A stretch of DNA of 32,620 bases from Microcystis aeruginosa Ma_SC_T_19800800_S464 (GTDB taxonomy: Bacteria; Cyanobacteriota; Cyanobacteriia; Cyanobacteriales; Microcystaceae): positions 1-32,620 of the forward strand of contig SFBL01000107.1 of assembly GCA_007095785.1 (NCBI GenBank), written 5' to 3'. A model generated the notes under the pieces. The model was given only the letters and a program-made list of their open reading frames with translations, had not been told where the DNA came from and ran no database searches. Below, one piece after another: positions 25,246-32,620 of the stretch. The position numbers and the translations under genes were made by a program. Positions within the stretch are counted from its first letter, which is position 1; each line of letters opens with the position of its first letter.

Positions 25246-25821
25246 ATGAGCCAAATGGAGACGCAGAAATGTGACCTTTGCCGAGGGGGATTTTGTAATA
25301 TTTGCCCCCAGACTAAAAAAAATTGGGATTTAGATAGATTATTTGAGGATCTGAAATGTGTACTTATTCTTCAAGATGACTATGAATCTATCGATAAGGT
25401 TCCTAAGGAAGCATGGAAGTCCGCTCAAAGAGGAAATAAAACACTAAAAGCAAAGGAAAAATGTTGGTTATGTTTACTATTACAAGGCTATGATGTAAAA
25501 CAGATAGAAAGCTATTTACATTTAACTAATATTAAAGGAGACCTGTCTAAAAGTATTTACAAACGGATTAGTTTTCTGGCTTCCGGCAAACAAATAGGTG
25601 ATTGGGCGCGAGTTCCTATTTACCTTGAGCATCATGTTAACTCAGCCTACACTTGGAATTATAGAAAAAATACCTACACCTCAGTTACAAATGAAGAAAT
25701 CGGTATTAATATTAAGCTGAGTAAGACAGATGAAAACCCAATCAATCGTTCTAGAATAGTTGAAGTATTCAGGCTTCTTAAAATTGATATTAGGGAGGAA
25801 GATATAGAAATAATAGGGTAA
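25246..25821 (+). CDS. Cys-cluster protein with possible HTH, function unknown
   Basis: I do not recognise this 191-aa protein with certainty. The start has a compact cysteine cluster (KCDLCRGGFCNICPQ) that looks like a zinc-binding knuckle. Residues about 65-105 (LKAKEKCWLCLLLQGYDVKQ, then IESYLHLTNIKGDLSKSIYK) resemble the small winged-HTH module found at the N-terminus of cyanobacterial NTPase and CHAT-type conflict proteins, in which WLCLLLQGYD corresponds to the first helix pair. The remaining C-terminal part is beta-rich and polar. It lies 84 bases left of the inverted-repeat segment that carries the CHAT protease operon and is read in the same direction, so it may belong with it. Function and link are inference. 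Confidence 0.55.
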   Translation: MSQMETQKCDLCRGGFCNICPQTKKNWDLDRLFEDLKCVLILQDDYESIDKVPKEAWKSAQRGNKTLKAKEKCWLCLLLQGYDVKQIESYLHLTNIKGDLSKSIYKRISFLASGKQIGDWARVPIYLEHHVNSAYTWNYRKNTYTSVTNEEIGINIKLSKTDENPINRSRIVEVFRLLKIDIREEDIEIIG

Positions 25822-25869
25822 GATAATGATCTCTGGCTCTTCGGTTTGTGTTATGCAATAGACTGGGGT

Positions 25870-25891
25870 TATAAGGGATGGAACCCTTATA
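25870..25891. repeat. 8-bp hairpin before the left inverted repeat
   Basis: TATAAGGG and CCCTTATA pair perfectly across a 6-base loop, 48 bases after the preceding gene. There is no T-run, so it is a weak terminator candidate or part of a repeat element. Confidence 0.5.
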
Positions 25892-25905
25892 TAGAAAGGC
25901 ATTTA

Positions 25906-26021
25906 GCGATTTTTGTCAATTGTTTTTGATCTAGAGCGAACTAATCAATTAAGTCTCTTGCCAGATAAGGATTTAGTCGATTTATGTCCCCCTATCGAAC
26001 CATACCAAGTAACGAAGAACC
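25906..26021 (+). repeat. Left arm of 116-bp inverted repeat
   Basis: This 116-bp sequence is the reverse complement of 32084-32199 with about three mismatches. Its right 30 bases are the antisense of the last codons of the PIN toxin gene at the far end, so it contains a fragment of a second copy of that gene's 3' end. Confidence 0.93.
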
Positions 26022-26069
26022 TGATCTCTTAGTTAAATTGATTACGATTATTTTTCCAAAGCTCAGTAA

Positions 26070-26165
26070 TATAGCGGTTCTCGCATCTGTGCGGCACACT
26101 TAAACGTTTGCTGATTAAGCTGTTTAGGATCGGGAATGTACCTCTTGTGAATCAGAAACGCTATA
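26070..26165 (+). mobile_element. 96-bp MITE-like element, left copy
   Basis: The element begins TATAGCGGTT and ends AAACGCTATA, imperfect 10-bp terminal inverted repeats. It matches 30586-30681 in inverted orientation, with the same 96-bp length and about 15 differences. It encodes nothing. Ends starting TATA suggest TA insertion sites. Confidence 0.85.
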
Positions 26166-26226: not shown

Positions 26227-26898
26227 ATGACCAATCAGGCTGACGCACAAAATCAAAATACTATAATTCAACTGAAGGGTAACTATCAAATACTTGATCG
26301 GTTATGCGAACTATTTGAGTCTGGAGAATTAGAAAAAGCACTCGGTATTTCTATTTTAGAATTAGAAGCCTTTAGTCTAAAAAAAATTATAGTGTTAGAA
26401 GAACCTAAATCAAATGCTAAAATTTTAGATATATCAAAAAATACAATAACGATTCAAGAATCTGCTGTTATAGAAACATCAACCGCTATTGAATCTATAA
26501 AAAGTGAGATAGTTTCCCTATTGAGTTTCTGGCAAAATTGTCTTGAAAATCAAGGATTTAAAACGGCAACGCTTGGGAACTCAATTAGTCGAAAAAAAGT
26601 AATTGAATTAGACCAACATCTGATCGAATTAATTTTGACGATTGACGAAATTAATAAAAAAGAAATTCGCATATATTTGAAAGTTAGACCTCACAACGGT
26701 AAAGGTTATTTGCCTGAGAATCTGATTGTTTCTGTCTTCGATGAAGAAGGAGAATTTTTTCCCTCTCAAAAAACAAATGGACAAACTAATATTCTTGATC
26801 TTACGATAGGACATAGCTTTGTTTGTAAAACCAATGATTCTTTTAAAATTAGTTTTACTCTCAATGAAATTACAATAGTAGAAAGCTTTCCAGGATAG
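26227..26898 (+). CDS. DUF1822-like protein, partner of CHAT protease
   Basis: The 223-aa product has a helical N-terminal half (LCELFESGELEKALGISILE) and a beta-sandwich C-terminal part with the DUF1822 pattern (IRIYLKVRPHNGKGYLPENL, then SVFDEEGEFFPSQ, and a closing SFKISFTLNE with VESF). DUF1822 proteins are cyanobacterial, of unknown function, and very often lie next to CHAT-domain proteins, exactly as here: the CHAT gene starts 13 bases later. The typical N-terminal core of the family is poorly matched, so the call rests on the C-terminal part and the context. ATG 26227 is preceded by AAGGAGCAAATC, a strong ribosome site. It probably opens the three-gene operon; a role as sensor or substrate of the protease is inferred. 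Confidence 0.72.
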   Translation: MTNQADAQNQNTIIQLKGNYQILDRLCELFESGELEKALGISILELEAFSLKKIIVLEEPKSNAKILDISKNTITIQESAVIETSTAIESIKSEIVSLLSFWQNCLENQGFKTATLGNSISRKKVIELDQHLIELILTIDEINKKEIRIYLKVRPHNGKGYLPENLIVSVFDEEGEFFPSQKTNGQTNILDLTIGHSFVCKTNDSFKISFTLNEITIVESFPG

Positions 26899-26911
26899 AA
26901 AAGAGATTGCT

Positions 26912-29245
26912 ATGTCAAAAAAAATTTATTTTAAAATTGGTTCCTGTCTTCAATTGCCAAACCGAATGGCAGTTCTACCCGTCACTTTGACTATCTCTGA
27001 CTCTAAAGGCCGTTTGGAAGAAAGAAGCTCCTATCTTTCAATTATGCCAGAGCAACTTAGTCAGACATTTAATATCTGGAAAAATTACATCATTCCAGAC
27101 TCTCCCCGACGACCTGAAATAAAATCTCTGTCTGAGCAACTATCAAGTACCGATGGTAATATTAGTTTACAGAAACTGGCTGAAAATTTAAAAACAGAAA
27201 TGAATCAATGGTTAACAGATACTCAAAGTTGGATTAACGAAAAGGGTGAAGTTGACTCAAAAATTCAAAACACCTTAGAAAAATACGCAAATTCACAAGA
27301 AGAAATTCAACTTTTTATACAAACTGAAGATCGAATATTAAGAGGATTTCCTTGGCAAGAGTGGGAATTTTTGCAGCCTTTATTTCGTCTGCACAAAAAT
27401 ACAGAGTTATCTGTGAGCGCAACGGATTTCGCACGTCCCGAACAAAAACAAACCATTAACCGCTTAGATACAAGAGTTCGGATTTTAGCTATTTTCGCAG
27501 ATAACGAATTAGATGAAAATAATGAATATAAGCAAGAAAAAGAATCTCTCGATCGATTAAAAAAATATGGTGCTTTTATTCAGACACTTTATCAGCCGAA
27601 TTACTCGGATTTAATTGAAGCTCTAGAAGAACCAGCAGGTTGGCATATCTTCTTTTTTGCAGGTCATAGTCACAGTAATCCAGACGGTAGAATTGGCTGG
27701 CTGCAAATTAGTTGGCTAGATAATAATCAAAAACTTCAAACAAAAGAAATTGAGATTAATGAATTAACCAAATGGATGCAAAAATTGATTAATGATAAAC
27801 TACAACTGGCAATTTTTAACTCCTGTGACGGTTTAGGATTAGCCAATCAACTAACTTCTCTAAATCTCCCTTACTGTATCGTAATGCGGGAAAGAGTAGA
27901 TTCTTCCTTTGCAGGTACATTACTTACTCATTTGCTAAAGGCTTTTGTTGAAAAGGAAAAATCTATATTTGCCTCGATGCGTTATGCTCGTGAACAACTA
28001 TTATCGGAATATGATCAGGGATTTAAACCATCGGGAAAAAGTTGGCTACCTGTTATTGTCGCTAACCCAGAGGCCCCTGAGTTAACTTGGGATAGTTTGT
28101 TTATAGAACGTCGCTTGGGTCCCAAATGTGAATTAATTTTATTGTTTTTTTTAGTCGTTATAGCGATTGGATTACCGTTAAGTATTTTAGGAGAATTTGG
28201 CAGTCTTAATACTTTGCGGTTTTATGCACAGCTTTATCCTCATATCATTGTTTATCCTTCACTATTTCTGCCTTTGTCACTATTCTCTCTTTATCGAGCC
28301 TTTAGCTTAATACTAAAAAAAACAGGAATAATTTTGATGGTTACTACTCTTATTGCATTTGCATCTATAATTGCTATTTTTACAGAATTAAATTCTGATC
28401 CGTTATTCTTATTTGAAATTAAACCCGATAGCAGTATTATTCTTGAAATACAGGAATTAAATGCAATTCTAATCAGTAAAAATATTAATAAGTATCAACT
28501 TCCTCCTCAATGGTTAAATGAAATTAATTTAAAAGAGAAAGTTAATCTTGATAAACAATATATCGAAGCTTTTATTAAGGGAATTATTCAGCCTCCTGAA
28601 AAAAATAATGAAGCTAATGGAATTTTTTTGAGTATTGCCCATAGTCATCAACTTTGGTCAAAGCATTACTCTATAAGTCGCTTTTTTTATTTGTTCAATT
28701 ACTGGGCAATTTTTTTCTGTGCTTTTGAATTGACAGCTTTTTTGTCGGAAAATATTTTTAATGACAACTCTGTATTTAACATTGATAAGTATCTCAAATA
28801 TATTTTGTTGTGTGATATCGGATTGCTTCTCTGGATCCCTTTTGATAATTATTATACCAAACAAGTTAAAAGTTTATTATTTCAAACAGATAACTTAGAA
28901 ACCAATCTCAGAATTTTTGTTTATTTATTTATTGCTTTTCTTCTATTAATGACTATTGTTTTTATAATCAAAAATCCTAGAATTAAAATATGGAATCATA
29001 AAGCAAGTTTAGCTTTTCTTTTTATTGCCATTTTCGTTTTCTCAATTTCAATAAATCAATTCATTTTGTCAAAAATAAACCAATCCTTCGGTCTTGCTAG
29101 TAAAAGTCTCTTTGTTACTTGGACAGGGGGTTTTTTCTTTCTAATGCTGGTCATATATCCTATTATCATTTTCTTGATTGAAGGGAAACAATTAGAAAAA
29201 AAACTTGTAGGCTTTAAAAAACTTATTAATTTCTTACGCTCATGA
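26912..29245 (+). CDS. CHAT-domain protease with eight C-terminal membrane helices
   Basis: The 777-aa product is a caspase-like (CHAT, clan CD) cysteine peptidase joined to a membrane module. Residues about 1-130 form the N-terminal lead seen in cyanobacterial CHAT proteins, and the CHAT domain runs from about 150 to 395. The catalytic pair is visible: His252 in FFFAGHSHS and Cys305 in AIFNSCDGLGLA, followed by IVMRERVDSSFAGTLL and FASMRYAREQLL. From about residue 405 to 760 come some eight hydrophobic helices (CELILLFFLVVIAIGLPL first, FFFLMLVIYPIIIFLI last), so the peptidase is tethered to the membrane on the cytoplasmic side. Its ATG has AAAAGAGATTGCT upstream, a weak site, suggesting coupling to the DUF1822 gene. 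Its stop overlaps the next start (ATGA). Confidence 0.93.
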   Translation: MSKKIYFKIGSCLQLPNRMAVLPVTLTISDSKGRLEERSSYLSIMPEQLSQTFNIWKNYIIPDSPRRPEIKSLSEQLSSTDGNISLQKLAENLKTEMNQWLTDTQSWINEKGEVDSKIQNTLEKYANSQEEIQLFIQTEDRILRGFPWQEWEFLQPLFRLHKNTELSVSATDFARPEQKQTINRLDTRVRILAIFADNELDENNEYKQEKESLDRLKKYGAFIQTLYQPNYSDLIEALEEPAGWHIFFFAGHSHSNPDGRIGWLQISWLDNNQKLQTKEIEINELTKWMQKLINDKLQLAIFNSCDGLGLANQLTSLNLPYCIVMRERVDSSFAGTLLTHLLKAFVEKEKSIFASMRYAREQLLSEYDQGFKPSGKSWLPVIVANPEAPELTWDSLFIERRLGPKCELILLFFLVVIAIGLPLSILGEFGSLNTLRFYAQLYPHIIVYPSLFLPLSLFSLYRAFSLILKKTGIILMVTTLIAFASIIAIFTELNSDPLFLFEIKPDSSIILEIQELNAILISKNINKYQLPPQWLNEINLKEKVNLDKQYIEAFIKGIIQPPEKNNEANGIFLSIAHSHQLWSKHYSISRFFYLFNYWAIFFCAFELTAFLSENIFNDNSVFNIDKYLKYILLCDIGLLLWIPFDNYYTKQVKSLLFQTDNLETNLRIFVYLFIAFLLLMTIVFIIKNPRIKIWNHKASLAFLFIAIFVFSISINQFILSKINQSFGLASKSLFVTWTGGFFFLMLVIYPIIIFLIEGKQLEKKLVGFKKLINFLRS

Positions 29246-29847
29246 AACTCTTATCATCATCACAAATAACAACTTCTGTAGTGATCACTTTTCTCTATAT
29301 TCTACCTGTTGTTTTACTTCTAATAAAGGTTATTCCGTTTAGCGATCGCTTTTTAGTATTAGCCATTACAGGAGCATTGATTATCGGTTTAGCACTGCTC
29401 AACGAGATTTCTCTAGCAGATTTAGGCTTTAATCATCAAAATTTATTACCAGCGATTAAAGATATTTTACCCGTAACCATAATATCTTCCGTTTTAATGA
29501 TTGCCTTTTATCTTAATCATGGAATGCGAATTGATAATACTGGTATTCCCTGGTACTTCTATGTATTTTATATTTCCCTTTCATCGCCGCTACAGGAATT
29601 TTTATACCGTTCCTACCTTTTTAACCGACTTGCTCAAATTCAACTTAATCAAGGTTCTATCATTATCATCACTGCTATTCTTTATAGTTTTGCTCATAGC
29701 ATTTATCAAGACCTGCTAACAGTCTTATTAAGTTTAATTATCGGTTTATATTGGGCATATCACTATAATCGCTTTAAGAATTTTTATAGTATTACCCTTA
29801 GCCATACAATTCTTGGTATTATCGCAATTCTTACAGGCAGTGTATAA
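29242..29847 (+). CDS. CPBP (CAAX-type) intramembrane metalloprotease
   Basis: The 201-aa product has about six membrane helices and the motifs of CPBP (Abi/Rce1-like) proteases: motif 1 SSPLQEFLYRSYLF, motif 2 YSFAHSIYQD and motif 3 LSHTILGIIA. In the usual motif 1 (EExxxR) the first Glu is replaced by Gln (QEFLYR); the arginine and both histidines remain. Members cleave prenylated or other membrane proteins, and in bacteria some serve bacteriocin immunity or transport. Its ATG overlaps the TGA of the CHAT gene by four bases, so the two membrane proteases are translated together. That suggests a two-step protease device or that one guards the other; this is inference. Whether the Gln abolishes activity is not known. 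Confidence 0.85.
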   Translation: MKLLSSSQITTSVVITFLYILPVVLLLIKVIPFSDRFLVLAITGALIIGLALLNEISLADLGFNHQNLLPAIKDILPVTIISSVLMIAFYLNHGMRIDNTGIPWYFYVFYISLSSPLQEFLYRSYLFNRLAQIQLNQGSIIIITAILYSFAHSIYQDLLTVLLSLIIGLYWAYHYNRFKNFYSITLSHTILGIIAILTGSV

Positions 29848-29884: not shown

Positions 29885-30021
29885 TATAAGTTAAAAGGTT
29901 GACCATGGATTTCCCTCATCTATTTGTTAAAAGGCAATTATAAAGACTAAATTTTGGGAATTACATAAGCTTTAATTTTATAGCTATTACGACTTCCTTT
30001 TGGACTAAACCAATTGCCAGA
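29885..30021 (+). repeat. 137-bp direct repeat, copy A
   Basis: It is identical to 30682-30818 except for one base (GACC here, AACC there). It contains the 3' end of the secreted-protein pseudogene and its downstream sequence. Confidence 0.93.
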
Positions 30022-30488: not shown

Positions 30489-30595
30489 AAACGCTATAGT
30501 CATTTCAGATAAATCTGATACACTCTAGACCGACAAAACCCTTATGAACTCTGGGATTGATATTCTCAATCTTAATTGAAATGACTATAGCGTTT
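30489..30595. mobile_element. 107-bp MITE-like element with 19-bp terminal inverted repeats
   Basis: AAACGCTATAGTCATTTCA at 30489-30507 is perfectly inverted at 30577-30595. The 69-base interior codes for nothing. Its right end overlaps the start of the 96-bp element, the two sharing TATAGCGTTT. Confidence 0.9.
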
Positions 30596-30681
30596 CCTGT
30601 TAACAAGAGGTACATTCTCAATCCTGAAAAGCTTAATCAGCAAAGGTTAAAGTGTGCCACACAGATGTGAGAACCGCTATA
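30586..30681 (-). mobile_element. 96-bp MITE-like element, right copy
   Basis: This is the inverted counterpart of 26070-26165: on the minus strand it begins TATAGCGGTTCTC and ends AAACGCTATA. It joins directly to copy B of the 137-bp repeat. Confidence 0.87.
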
Positions 30682-30818
30682 TATAAGTTAAAAGGTTAAC
30701 CATGGATTTCCCTCATCTATTTGTTAAAAGGCAATTATAAAGACTAAATTTTGGGAATTACATAAGCTTTAATTTTATAGCTATTACGACTTCCTTTTGG
30801 ACTAAACCAATTGCCAGA
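30682..30818 (+). repeat. 137-bp direct repeat, copy B (gene 3'-end remnant)
   Basis: This second copy of 29885-30021 holds only the 3' end of a secreted-protein gene, cut off at its right edge where unrelated sequence begins. It is a remnant and not a functional gene. Confidence 0.9.
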
Positions 30819-31048: not shown

Positions 31049-31087
31049 GAGGTGAAATAATATAAATGCGTGGAGTCATTCTCTGAT

Positions 31088-31567
31088 ATGAGTAAATATT
31101 TTAATTTTGACCCAACTCATTTTCTTGTCGAACCCGAAGAAACTGAACAAATAACCCAATTAAATCAGCTGCTTAATAAAGAAATACCGACGAGACTCGT
31201 CACTGAACAGGGAGAAAATGTCTATATTCCCGAATCGGTTTTAATGGTACTTCGTTACAGTGTAGCTGCCTTAGCATCGGGACAGGTAATTCAGTTAAAT
31301 GTTACCCCTCAGGATTTAACTATAGAAAAAGCGGCTAATTTGTTAAATGTTTCTAACTCTTATCTAATAAAATTACTAGAACAGGGGCAAATTTTATCGA
31401 CTAATGTAGGCAGTGATCGACGAATAAAACGAGAAGATTTGCTAATATATAAAGAGAAAAAATATCAAGAAAGAGAACAAATTTTAAATAACCTTGTAGC
31501 CATGACTGAAGCGGAAGGACTATACAGAAAAGATGAGAAATTAAACCTAGATGACAGCAGAGCCTAG
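31088..31567 (+). CDS. HTH antitoxin of a PIN toxin-antitoxin pair
   Basis: The 159-aa product (165 aa from GTG 31070) has the layout of excisionase-like antitoxins. An N-terminal part with short beta strands (TRLVTEQGENVYIPESVLMV) is followed by the HTH core LTIEKAANLLNVSNSYLIKL, then the wing LEQGQILSTNVGSDRRIKRE and a basic C-terminal helix (DLLIYKEKKYQEREQIL). The tail probably wraps the toxin. The stop overlaps the start of the PIN toxin gene by 17 bases, a typical antitoxin-first operon with translational coupling. The PIN gene is frameshifted, so the antitoxin may now lack a partner. It probably represses its own promoter; ATG 31088 gives the most natural N-terminus. A strong ribosome site is not visible. 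Confidence 0.85.
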   Translation: MSKYFNFDPTHFLVEPEETEQITQLNQLLNKEIPTRLVTEQGENVYIPESVLMVLRYSVAALASGQVIQLNVTPQDLTIEKAANLLNVSNSYLIKLLEQGQILSTNVGSDRRIKREDLLIYKEKKYQEREQILNNLVAMTEAEGLYRKDEKLNLDDSRA

Positions 31568-32113
31568 GGTTGTTTTAGATGCTTGTGTTCTTATTCCTCA
31601 GTATTTACGCGATACTTTATTATCAATTGCTTGGCAAGGTTTATACTCGCCTTACTGGTCGAAATTAATTTTAGAAGAAACAACCCGCAATCTGATTAAT
31701 CGATATAATATAACTTCAATAAAAGCCCTTAATTTAGTGGAGACAATGCAGCTTTTCCCGAAGCCATGGTTGAAGTGCCATCTGGTTTAATTGAGTTAAT
31801 GACAAACGACTTAAAAGACCGTCATGTTTTAGCAACTGCTGTTATGGCTAAAGCTAATCTAATTTTAACTAATAATATTACCGACTTTTCACTGTCAGCT
31901 TTAGAAACTTGGGGTATAAAGGCTCAATCTCCTGATACTTTTTTAAGTAATTTGTTCCATGAATATCCCGAAGAAATTAAATTCAGTCTAAATAGGCAAG
32001 TCAAGAAATATAAAAATCCTCAAAAAACTCTAGCTGAATTACTAGAGTTTTTAGATAAAAAAGCCAATTTATCTAATTTTTGTGGTTCTTCGTTACTTGG
32101 TATGGTTCGATAG
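31551..32113 (+). pseudogene. Frameshifted PIN-domain toxin
   Basis: Two overlapping frames together make one PIN RNase of about 187 aa. The first frame (ATG 31551 to 31790) has the initial Asp motif VVLDACVLIPQYLRDTLLS and the acidic strand LILEETTRNLI. The second (to TAG 32113) has DLKDRHVLATAVMAKAN and LTNNITDFS, which hold the remaining acidic residues. The frames switch near 31750, in CAGCTTTTCCC, where the first reads LFPKPW and the second FPEAMVEV. A one- or two-base slip in the T-run explains it. PIN toxins cleave RNA, and without the shift the four acids would be complete. The last 30 bases are duplicated in inverted form at 25991-26021. Rare programmed frameshifting is an alternative. 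Confidence 0.85.
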
Positions 32114-32199
32114 GGGGGCATAAATTGACTAAATCCTTATCTGGCAAGAGACTTAATTGATGAGTTCGCTCTAGATCAAAAACAATTGACAAAAATCGC
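32084..32199 (-). repeat. Right arm of 116-bp inverted repeat
   Basis: This is the reverse complement of 25906-26021 with about three differences. It covers the 3' end of the PIN toxin gene and 86 bases downstream. Confidence 0.93.
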
Positions 32200-32620
32200 C
32201 AACAAAAACCGAAGACCCATTTTTGTCAAAAGATAACTAAAATTCTTTGATATAACCGAACTTCTCTAGTGTAAATGTACTAGCTATCTAAACATGGCTA
32301 CAGAGGGAATCGCTGACTCTAGAGATTGATGACACTATCTGTTACAATCAAGTTAGCGATCGCTATACAGCGAACTTTACAGAATCGCTCCACTCCAGAT
32401 AGAGTCAACGGTACAGACATTTTCAAGCGAAAAATGTACCCAGTAGCCTTTTTTCAATTTTTTCTGAGAAGCTCCATAAGGTTTTTGTTAATTTTTTAGT
32501 ATGTGCAACATTCAACCTAAGCAAAGCTGAGTATCGCTACCCAAACCTTGAAAAAGTACGGCATCATCCCGAAAGATGACGGCTGTTGCCTGCAAAGCAC
32601 GAAACATTATATTCCGTGCG
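32200..32620. other. Right-end region, no clear gene
   Basis: This stretch has one HIP1 octamer (32354-32361) and AT-rich sequence. At the edge an open plus-strand frame from 32522 (KLSIATQTLKKYGIIPKDD) runs off the window. The minus strand also has an open frame there (FRALQATAVIFRDDAVLFQG). Either may be part of a gene or transposable element that continues to the right; neither is recognised well enough to call. Confidence 0.4.

Follow-up and report, generated by a model that had tools for sequence, protein, structure and literature searches.

A cyanobacterial CHAT protease with an eight-helix membrane module and its recurrent CPBP-family neighbour in a four-gene cassette

EACC2-caspase systems, as described in the main text of PMC8195603, combine a CHAT protease of caspase fold, whose variable C-termini include multi-transmembrane (multi-TM) forms, with an ECF sigma factor and a DUF1822 protein. 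DUF1822 genes occur in the majority of EACC2-caspase neighbourhoods and the sigma factor in most TRADD-N-independent ones, and EACC2-type proteins were placed in apoptosis- or immunity-like systems, in which multi-TM C-termini might form pores (PMC8195603). In Anabaena, mutation of the CHAT active site of HetF was reported to abolish function (PMC8406250). As to CPBP proteins, Abx1 of Streptococcus agalactiae is reported to bind the TM domains of CovS and to function after the substitutions E164A, E165A, EE164/165AA, H197A and H235A (PMC3578759), and APH-1, a CPBP homologue in gamma-secretase, is described as carrying QExxR and two conserved histidines (PMC6588880). Here we analysed a 32,620-nucleotide stretch of Microcystis aeruginosa Ma_SC_T_19800800_S464 (contig SFBL01000107.1; hereafter the window) that contains a cassette of four genes (Table 1): a putative regulator of helix-turn-helix (HTH)-like character (U191), a DUF1822 protein, a CHAT protein ending in an eight-helix membrane module (CHAT-8TM), and a CPBP-family membrane protein. 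To our knowledge, the triggers and substrates of cyanobacterial CHAT proteases are mostly unknown; both become testable in a cassette this small and complete, which holds a putative receptor with its partner, the protease, DUF1822 and a regulator.

The central observation is that the membrane module and the CPBP gene occur together. The close family comprises 14 intact CHAT-8TM genes in 13 genomes (the window and loci L004, L034-L038, L078, L079 and L081-L085), which are not all independent, because three are from Microcystis and two share one genome. Of three further close genes, L039 is cut by a contig end and L086 and L087 are damaged; L095 is a deletion remnant. With L095 and L091 (at a contig edge) left out of the neighbour counts, a CPBP gene is the next gene downstream, on the same strand, in 13 of the 14 intact genes, window included, and in 3/3 of the cut or damaged ones. 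For comparison, 50 CHAT genes that share the N-terminal type but lack the module were taken from 48 loci, not at random: 46 loci are drawn from the best-scoring CHAT matches in the class and lie in genomes that gave no module hit when the same class draw was searched for it, and two come from the window's own genome. The CPBP subfamily is absent from the three open reading frames (ORFs) on each side of these control genes (0/50). A motif check was needed beside the CPBP profile, because the profile sees 8 of 11 ordinary CPBPs at E 0.01 or better; none of the 281 ORFs around the control genes combined such a motif with at least three helices, and the controls with 5-6 helices (L110, L112, L141 and L146) had no CPBP neighbour either. 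Thus, the association of module and CPBP is more than chance, and the recurrent CPBP neighbour that an earlier note on this DNA had suggested looking for was found.

Searches starting from the CPBP side gave a similar picture. At E 1e-15, the CPBP profile found 10 genes in 9 of 291 genomes of the order, each beside a module. Among 17 chosen genomes, a match at E 1e-10 was obtained in 10, and 8 of these adjoin the module or its remnant; in G689, 420 bases separate the match from a module that lacks CHAT and lies on the opposite strand, and in G678 degraded pieces of the CPBP remain, with a piece of a likewise degraded module ~800 bases away. No match at this threshold was obtained in G427, G640, G623, G658, G578, G459 and G674. 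Genomes G427, G640, G623, G658 and G678 have two module genes each. The flanking genes differ among genomes outside Microcystis, so the conserved unit is the cassette rather than a wider synteny. Within it, the earlier note had read an operon of three genes, DUF1822, CHAT-8TM and CPBP, separated by 13 and -4 bases. The ORFs confirm this layout, and the 4-base overlap of CHAT-8TM and CPBP recurs in 6 of 16 pairs (the window and five others), but a fourth gene of the cassette, that of U191, had been overlooked upstream.

The CPBP of the window matches the Pfam Rce1-like/CPBP family (PF02517) at E 1.5e-10 (41.6 bits; cut-off 22.4), and its catalytic motifs are altered. Motif 1 reads QExxxR in 19/19 distinct members of the module-linked subfamily (the window plus 18 others after removal of the duplicate L080, which is L004's contig; L095 is a remnant), whereas EExxxR is present in 27/27 other readable PF02517 proteins from eight of the same genomes, which are not independent, because orthologues recur among these genomes. 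The 45 PF02517 matches behind this comparison comprise 9 in the QE subfamily, L178 among them, the 27 others that were read, and L161, L165 and 7 further matches that were left out. In addition, HxxxN reads HxxxG, with Gly192 invariant in 8/8 aligned QE-type CPBPs. The text of PMC11980579 gives MrtX the same arrangement as MmRce1, with a water molecule bridged by the first Glu and the motif-2 His and an oxyanion hole formed by HxxxN. Because the first catalytic Glu and the HxxxN Asn are lost, intramembrane cleavage by the CPBP is doubtful, and the earlier note's view of it as a second, membrane-embedded protease was lowered. The gene is nonetheless under purifying selection: between the window and L034, the ratio of nonsynonymous to synonymous divergence (dN/dS) is 0.13 for the CPBP and 0.11 for module residues 451-777, the lowest of five stretches tested, so the CPBP is kept for some function. 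Judged from these motifs, a role as receptor subunit is more probable for it than one as a second cutting enzyme, and it would lack proteolytic activity. A PDB search with the CPBP profile gave no match at E 10 or better.

The CHAT domain of CHAT-8TM scores below the Pfam cut-off (E 4e-4; 20.3 bits against 24). The assignment is safe nevertheless, because its relatives keep His252 and Cys305: both are present in 14/14 intact close genes (window counted), in 50/50 control CHAT proteins and in 5/6 proteins of a more distant branch, the sixth of which does not span the sites; the broken close genes L086 and L087 do not show both of the dyad residues. The dyad that the earlier note had described as intact is therefore conserved among close homologues, as it had proposed to check. 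Its eight-helix module also holds at the looser of two Kyte-Doolittle thresholds (eight helices, against six at the strict one), and six full-length relatives have 7 or 8 helices each. If the CHAT domain is cytoplasmic, the loop between helices 3 and 4 would be extracytoplasmic and is a candidate sensor. No clear relative of the module emerged: the best Pfam match among 8 module members was PelG at E 7.5e-4 (2 members, the window's not among them), and the PDB yielded three matches, the best at E 0.019, that were judged chance. The CHAT protein had no PDB match up to E 1, and its NCBIfam HetF match (17.6 bits) is far below the cut-off of 1200. A joint profile of N-terminus and CHAT also matches the controls; the EACC2 domain itself lies outside this comparison. 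In the genome draws, which overlap, the CHAT protein was matched in 251/388 genomes of the class at E 0.001, and the membrane-module profile in 7/388 genomes of the class, 24/388 of the order, and 1/38 and 1/42 of two other orders. A full CHAT-8TM gene is present in 3/12 genomes of the genus.

The membrane half of the receptor is exchanged between otherwise similar loci. A scan of named genomes returned a single relative, Microcystis sp. LSC13-02 (L004). In a comparison that covered the locus and its neighbours rather than whole genomes, the window and L004 differ by 0 bases in U191, 0 in DUF1822 and 2 in the CPBP gene, and by 11 in CHAT residues 1-450, 10 of them within 27119-27294; the 1171 bases upstream are 99.9% identical. 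In contrast, each 60-base step of 28301-29260 is only 53-85% identical, and synonymous divergence (dS) reaches 0.88 for residues 451-777. L034 is a more distant relative (dS 0.11-0.17 across the remaining stretches) and has the module allele of the window (dS 0.09); therefore, the divergent allele most likely came into the L004 lineage, by recombination ending at the CPBP start. Two alleles are known so far, in three genomes. The swap points to the module as the sensing part of the receptor.

A putative regulator gene stands first in 14/14 intact close cassettes and is of two types. In 7/14 it is U191, followed by a DUF1822 protein of 182-223 amino acids; in the other 7/14 it is a sigma-like gene, followed by a DUF1822 protein of 309-316 amino acids. 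The U191 gene belongs to the cassette. Its distance to DUF1822 is 11 bases in L035, 23 in L083, 23 in L084 and -1 in L085, compared with 405 in the window, where the gap contains a repeat insertion absent from L034; ~290 bases of the window's gap are missing there. Relatives of U191 occur in 55/148 genomes of the order at E 0.001, and in some of them the same N-terminal module is fused to NB-ARC or WD40 regions. Among six longer relatives, NB-ARC/STAND matches are above the cut-off in L040, L193 and L197 and below it in L191, L185 has WD40 repeats, and L195 has a GerE/LuxR HTH match at E 1.2e-4, slightly under the cut-off. A sigma nature of U191 was considered and rejected (probability 0.1% in a profile comparison with the sigma set), and it is kept as HTH-like only. 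The DUF1822 protein of the window matches PF08852 at E 2.2e-10 (40.6 bits; cut-off 25) over residues 117-221, its C-terminal part only. DUF1822 proteins have at most one weak hydrophobic stretch and look soluble, and the strain-swapped part is the membrane module; the role of sensor that the earlier note had given to DUF1822 is accordingly less likely.

Two observations concern gene remnants and neighbours of related cassettes. Beside the cassette of L034 (15374-18174; G266), four proteins of 171-226 amino acids stand in a row, similar at the N-terminus and each with a single hydrophobic stretch. In L095 (6441-7459; G711), one short frame joins the start of the sigma-like gene to the end of the module, with a partial CPBP after it.

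Based on these findings, we propose a plausible mechanism, to which we give slightly less than even probability: a cassette of the EACC2-caspase kind in which a swappable membrane receptor and a non-proteolytic CPBP subunit switch a CHAT protease and a regulator. The CHAT protease would be cytoplasmic, at the end of the eight-helix membrane receptor. The CPBP, a dedicated and most likely non-proteolytic subunit, would bind the helices and determine which state the receptor is in, in the way that Abx1 acts on the CovS kinase. The CHAT protease, with its His252 and Cys305, might then be activated by a signal that reaches either the membrane or the loop joining helices 3 and 4. Active CHAT could cleave DUF1822 or itself and so free the regulator (HTH-like in the window, sigma-like in sister cassettes), which, by acting on DNA or polymerase, would change transcription. 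From the earlier note, the recurrent CPBP and the conserved dyad are retained, whereas the CPBP protease and the DUF1822 sensor are not.

Several observations weigh against this proposal. On the CPBP side, Glu119, Arg123, His152 (the motif-2 His) and His188 are invariant in 8/8 aligned QE-type proteins and could indicate an altered yet active site; the Asn of HxxxN is missing from some EE-type CPBPs too; and the single-sequence structure model of the CPBP is poor (mean confidence, pLDDT, 53), unusable for fold or complex. On the regulator side, there is little to mark U191 as an HTH protein, as it has no Pfam match itself, and the sigma-like proteins are weak in Pfam too: 8 of 12 aligned (9 from the close family, 1 distant and 2 controls) match Sigma70_r2 at E 0.1 or better, the best at 2.3e-6, and the match of the L036 protein is below the cut-off. 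As for the pairing, the intact close gene L085 (genome G459) is adjoined by another gene, and no CPBP of the subfamily occurs elsewhere in that genome at E 1e-10. The distant module branch (CHAT+TM genes matching at E about 1e-43 to 1e-50) is mostly without CPBP, which is next to 1/5 readable CHAT+TM genes (L089); the sixth such gene of the branch, L091, is truncated by the contig edge. Finally, the mirror-tree correlations (r 0.92-0.94) are expected from linkage alone.

The distant branch may follow a related rule. In L088, L090, L092 and L094, a second, CHAT-less module gene comes next instead of the CPBP. Likewise, a DUF928-type gene follows 18/50 control CHAT genes (for example L111, L113, L118, L133 and L149), as counted with a profile built from five of the downstream proteins later counted, one of which was checked in Pfam (PF06051). 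Both control CHAT proteins checked, L118 and L133, carry a CHASE2 receptor, and the control CHAT proteins have 0-6 predicted helices. These arrangements suggest that each receptor type may come with a matching partner gene.

Among the alternatives, the one that survives best, although we consider it unlikely, is a conflict or suicide device, in which the module forms a pore or CHAT kills on recognition of a phage or competitor, with the CPBP as guard or immunity part. The placement of such proteins in apoptosis- and immunity-like systems with possible pores (PMC8195603, main text) agrees with it, as do the patchy presence of the module in order, class and genus, the existence of broken copies (L086, L087 and L095), and the exchange of the receptor half between two genomes whose loci are otherwise almost the same. 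However, PADLOC models gave a single, chance-level match to the four cassette proteins (E 0.089), and identity with a known anti-phage system was rejected. Moreover, the regulator gene at the head of every intact close cassette indicates gene control, and the broken copies L086 and L087 retain an open CPBP gene. Quite unlikely, in our judgement, is a cascade of two proteases, with CHAT cutting on the cytoplasmic face and the CPBP within the membrane, like the regulated intramembrane proteolysis of sigma/anti-sigma pairs. The strict pairing of module and CPBP, the sigma-like gene in half of the intact close cassettes, the CPBP's score above the Pfam cut-off and its four retained residues would fit such a cascade. 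Against it stand the two catalytic positions lost in the QE-type proteins, and DUF1822 proteins would be poor intramembrane substrates because of their at most one weak hydrophobic stretch. Least probable is that the CPBP is a maturation factor (a chaperone or processing enzyme) that folds or trims the 8TM module without any signalling role, since L085 and most distant modules manage without it, even though the near-exclusive linkage, the 4-base overlaps and a CPBP almost unchanged beside a different module allele (window against L004) would suit that role.

Table 1 Features of the cassette in the window (positions counted from its first nucleotide).
Feature	Position	Strand	Basis or remark
HTH-like putative regulator gene U191, 191 aa (amino acids)	25246..25821	+	no Pfam match itself; from relatives
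DUF1822 gene, 223 aa, short form	26227..26898	+	ORF; Pfam PF08852 E 2.2e-10
CHAT-8TM putative receptor protease gene, 777 aa	26912..29245	+	ORF, Pfam, dyad conservation
His252 codon of CHAT dyad (FFFAGHS)	27665..27667	+	
Cys305 codon of CHAT dyad (FNSCDG)	27824..27826	+	
Eight-helix membrane module, residues 396-777	28097..29242	+	hydropathy; no credible Pfam/PDB relative
Loop of ~100 residues between helices 3 and 4, candidate sensor	28382..28690	+	hydropathy; predicted topology
Stretch of divergent allele relative to Microcystis sp. LSC13-02 (L004)	28291..29249	+	53-85% DNA identity per 60-base step
CPBP-family membrane protein gene, QE type, 201 aa, partner of the module	29242..29847	+	
Gln118-Glu119 of CPBP, at EE position of EExxxR motif	29593..29598	+	first Glu replaced by Gln

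Repeats lie in and around the cassette at 25834-26165, 29885-30021, 30586-30818 and 32065-32202, among them inverted pairs of 138 and 97 nucleotides and a direct repeat of 137 nucleotides (99%). Further downstream, a PIN-like gene (recognized by eye; 31551-32113) is split into two open frames of 79 and 115 amino acids in the window and is a single frame of 234 amino acids in L004; an HTH gene (31070-31567; PF12728) adjoins it. A scan for promoters and terminators was uninformative because the observed counts do not exceed those expected (23 promoter-like sites against 25.3, and 2 terminator-like sites against 3.7).

The set of regulator, DUF1822 and CHAT is described in PMC8195603, so the earlier note was right to call the pairing of DUF1822 and CHAT known, and its claim to novelty is overstated for that part. 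As to the link to a CPBP, the main text of PMC8195603 (figures and supplements aside) contains none of the terms 'CPBP', 'CAAX', 'Rce1' and 'intramembrane', and in the open-access literature searched, with the same restriction, we found no paper that connects a CPBP with CHAT/DUF1822 cassettes. What may be new, with a probability we place clearly below even, is the combination of a caspase-family protease fused to a polytopic sensor, bound to an APH-1-like pseudoprotease, with a sigma or HTH output and a receptor half exchanged between strains. If this is true, the layout of the complex with the APH-1-like pseudoprotease would make it a caspase-based bacterial equivalent of gamma-secretase or of signalling by receptor proteolysis. 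With their seemingly altered catalytic sites, strong purifying selection and single partner, the QE-type CPBPs also offer a natural test of non-proteolytic CPBP function.

Compared with EACC2-caspase systems as the main text of PMC8195603 presents them, the cassette shares the His/Cys dyad protease, the constant N-terminal part with a variable C-terminus (8TM here) and the DUF1822 gene. It differs in that a CPBP gene is almost always present as the fourth member and goes with one particular 8TM module, and, relative to most of their neighbourhoods, in that the window has the HTH-like U191 in place of a sigma gene, which its relatives carry in 7/14 cases. CHASE2-CHAT + DUF928 cassettes also run from regulator through DUF1822 to CHAT, carry a receptor at the C-terminus and have their own dedicated gene downstream, but their receptor and partner come from other families. 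HetF is likewise a cyanobacterial CHAT protein with a membrane segment; as described in PMC8406250, however, it has one predicted TM segment and tetratricopeptide repeats (TPR). The CPBP itself resembles Abx1, which is likewise a membrane protein with a CPBP/Abi domain, is linked to a signal receiver in the membrane and, in the account of PMC3578759, works without its putative catalytic residues; the partner of Abx1 is a histidine kinase rather than a caspase-like protease, and Abx1 has EE where the present protein has QE. With APH-1, part of a protease complex, it shares QE for EE and two conserved histidines, a likeness by motif description alone (PMC6588880), although APH-1 is eukaryotic and reads QExxR, whereas the cyanobacterial proteins read QExxxR.

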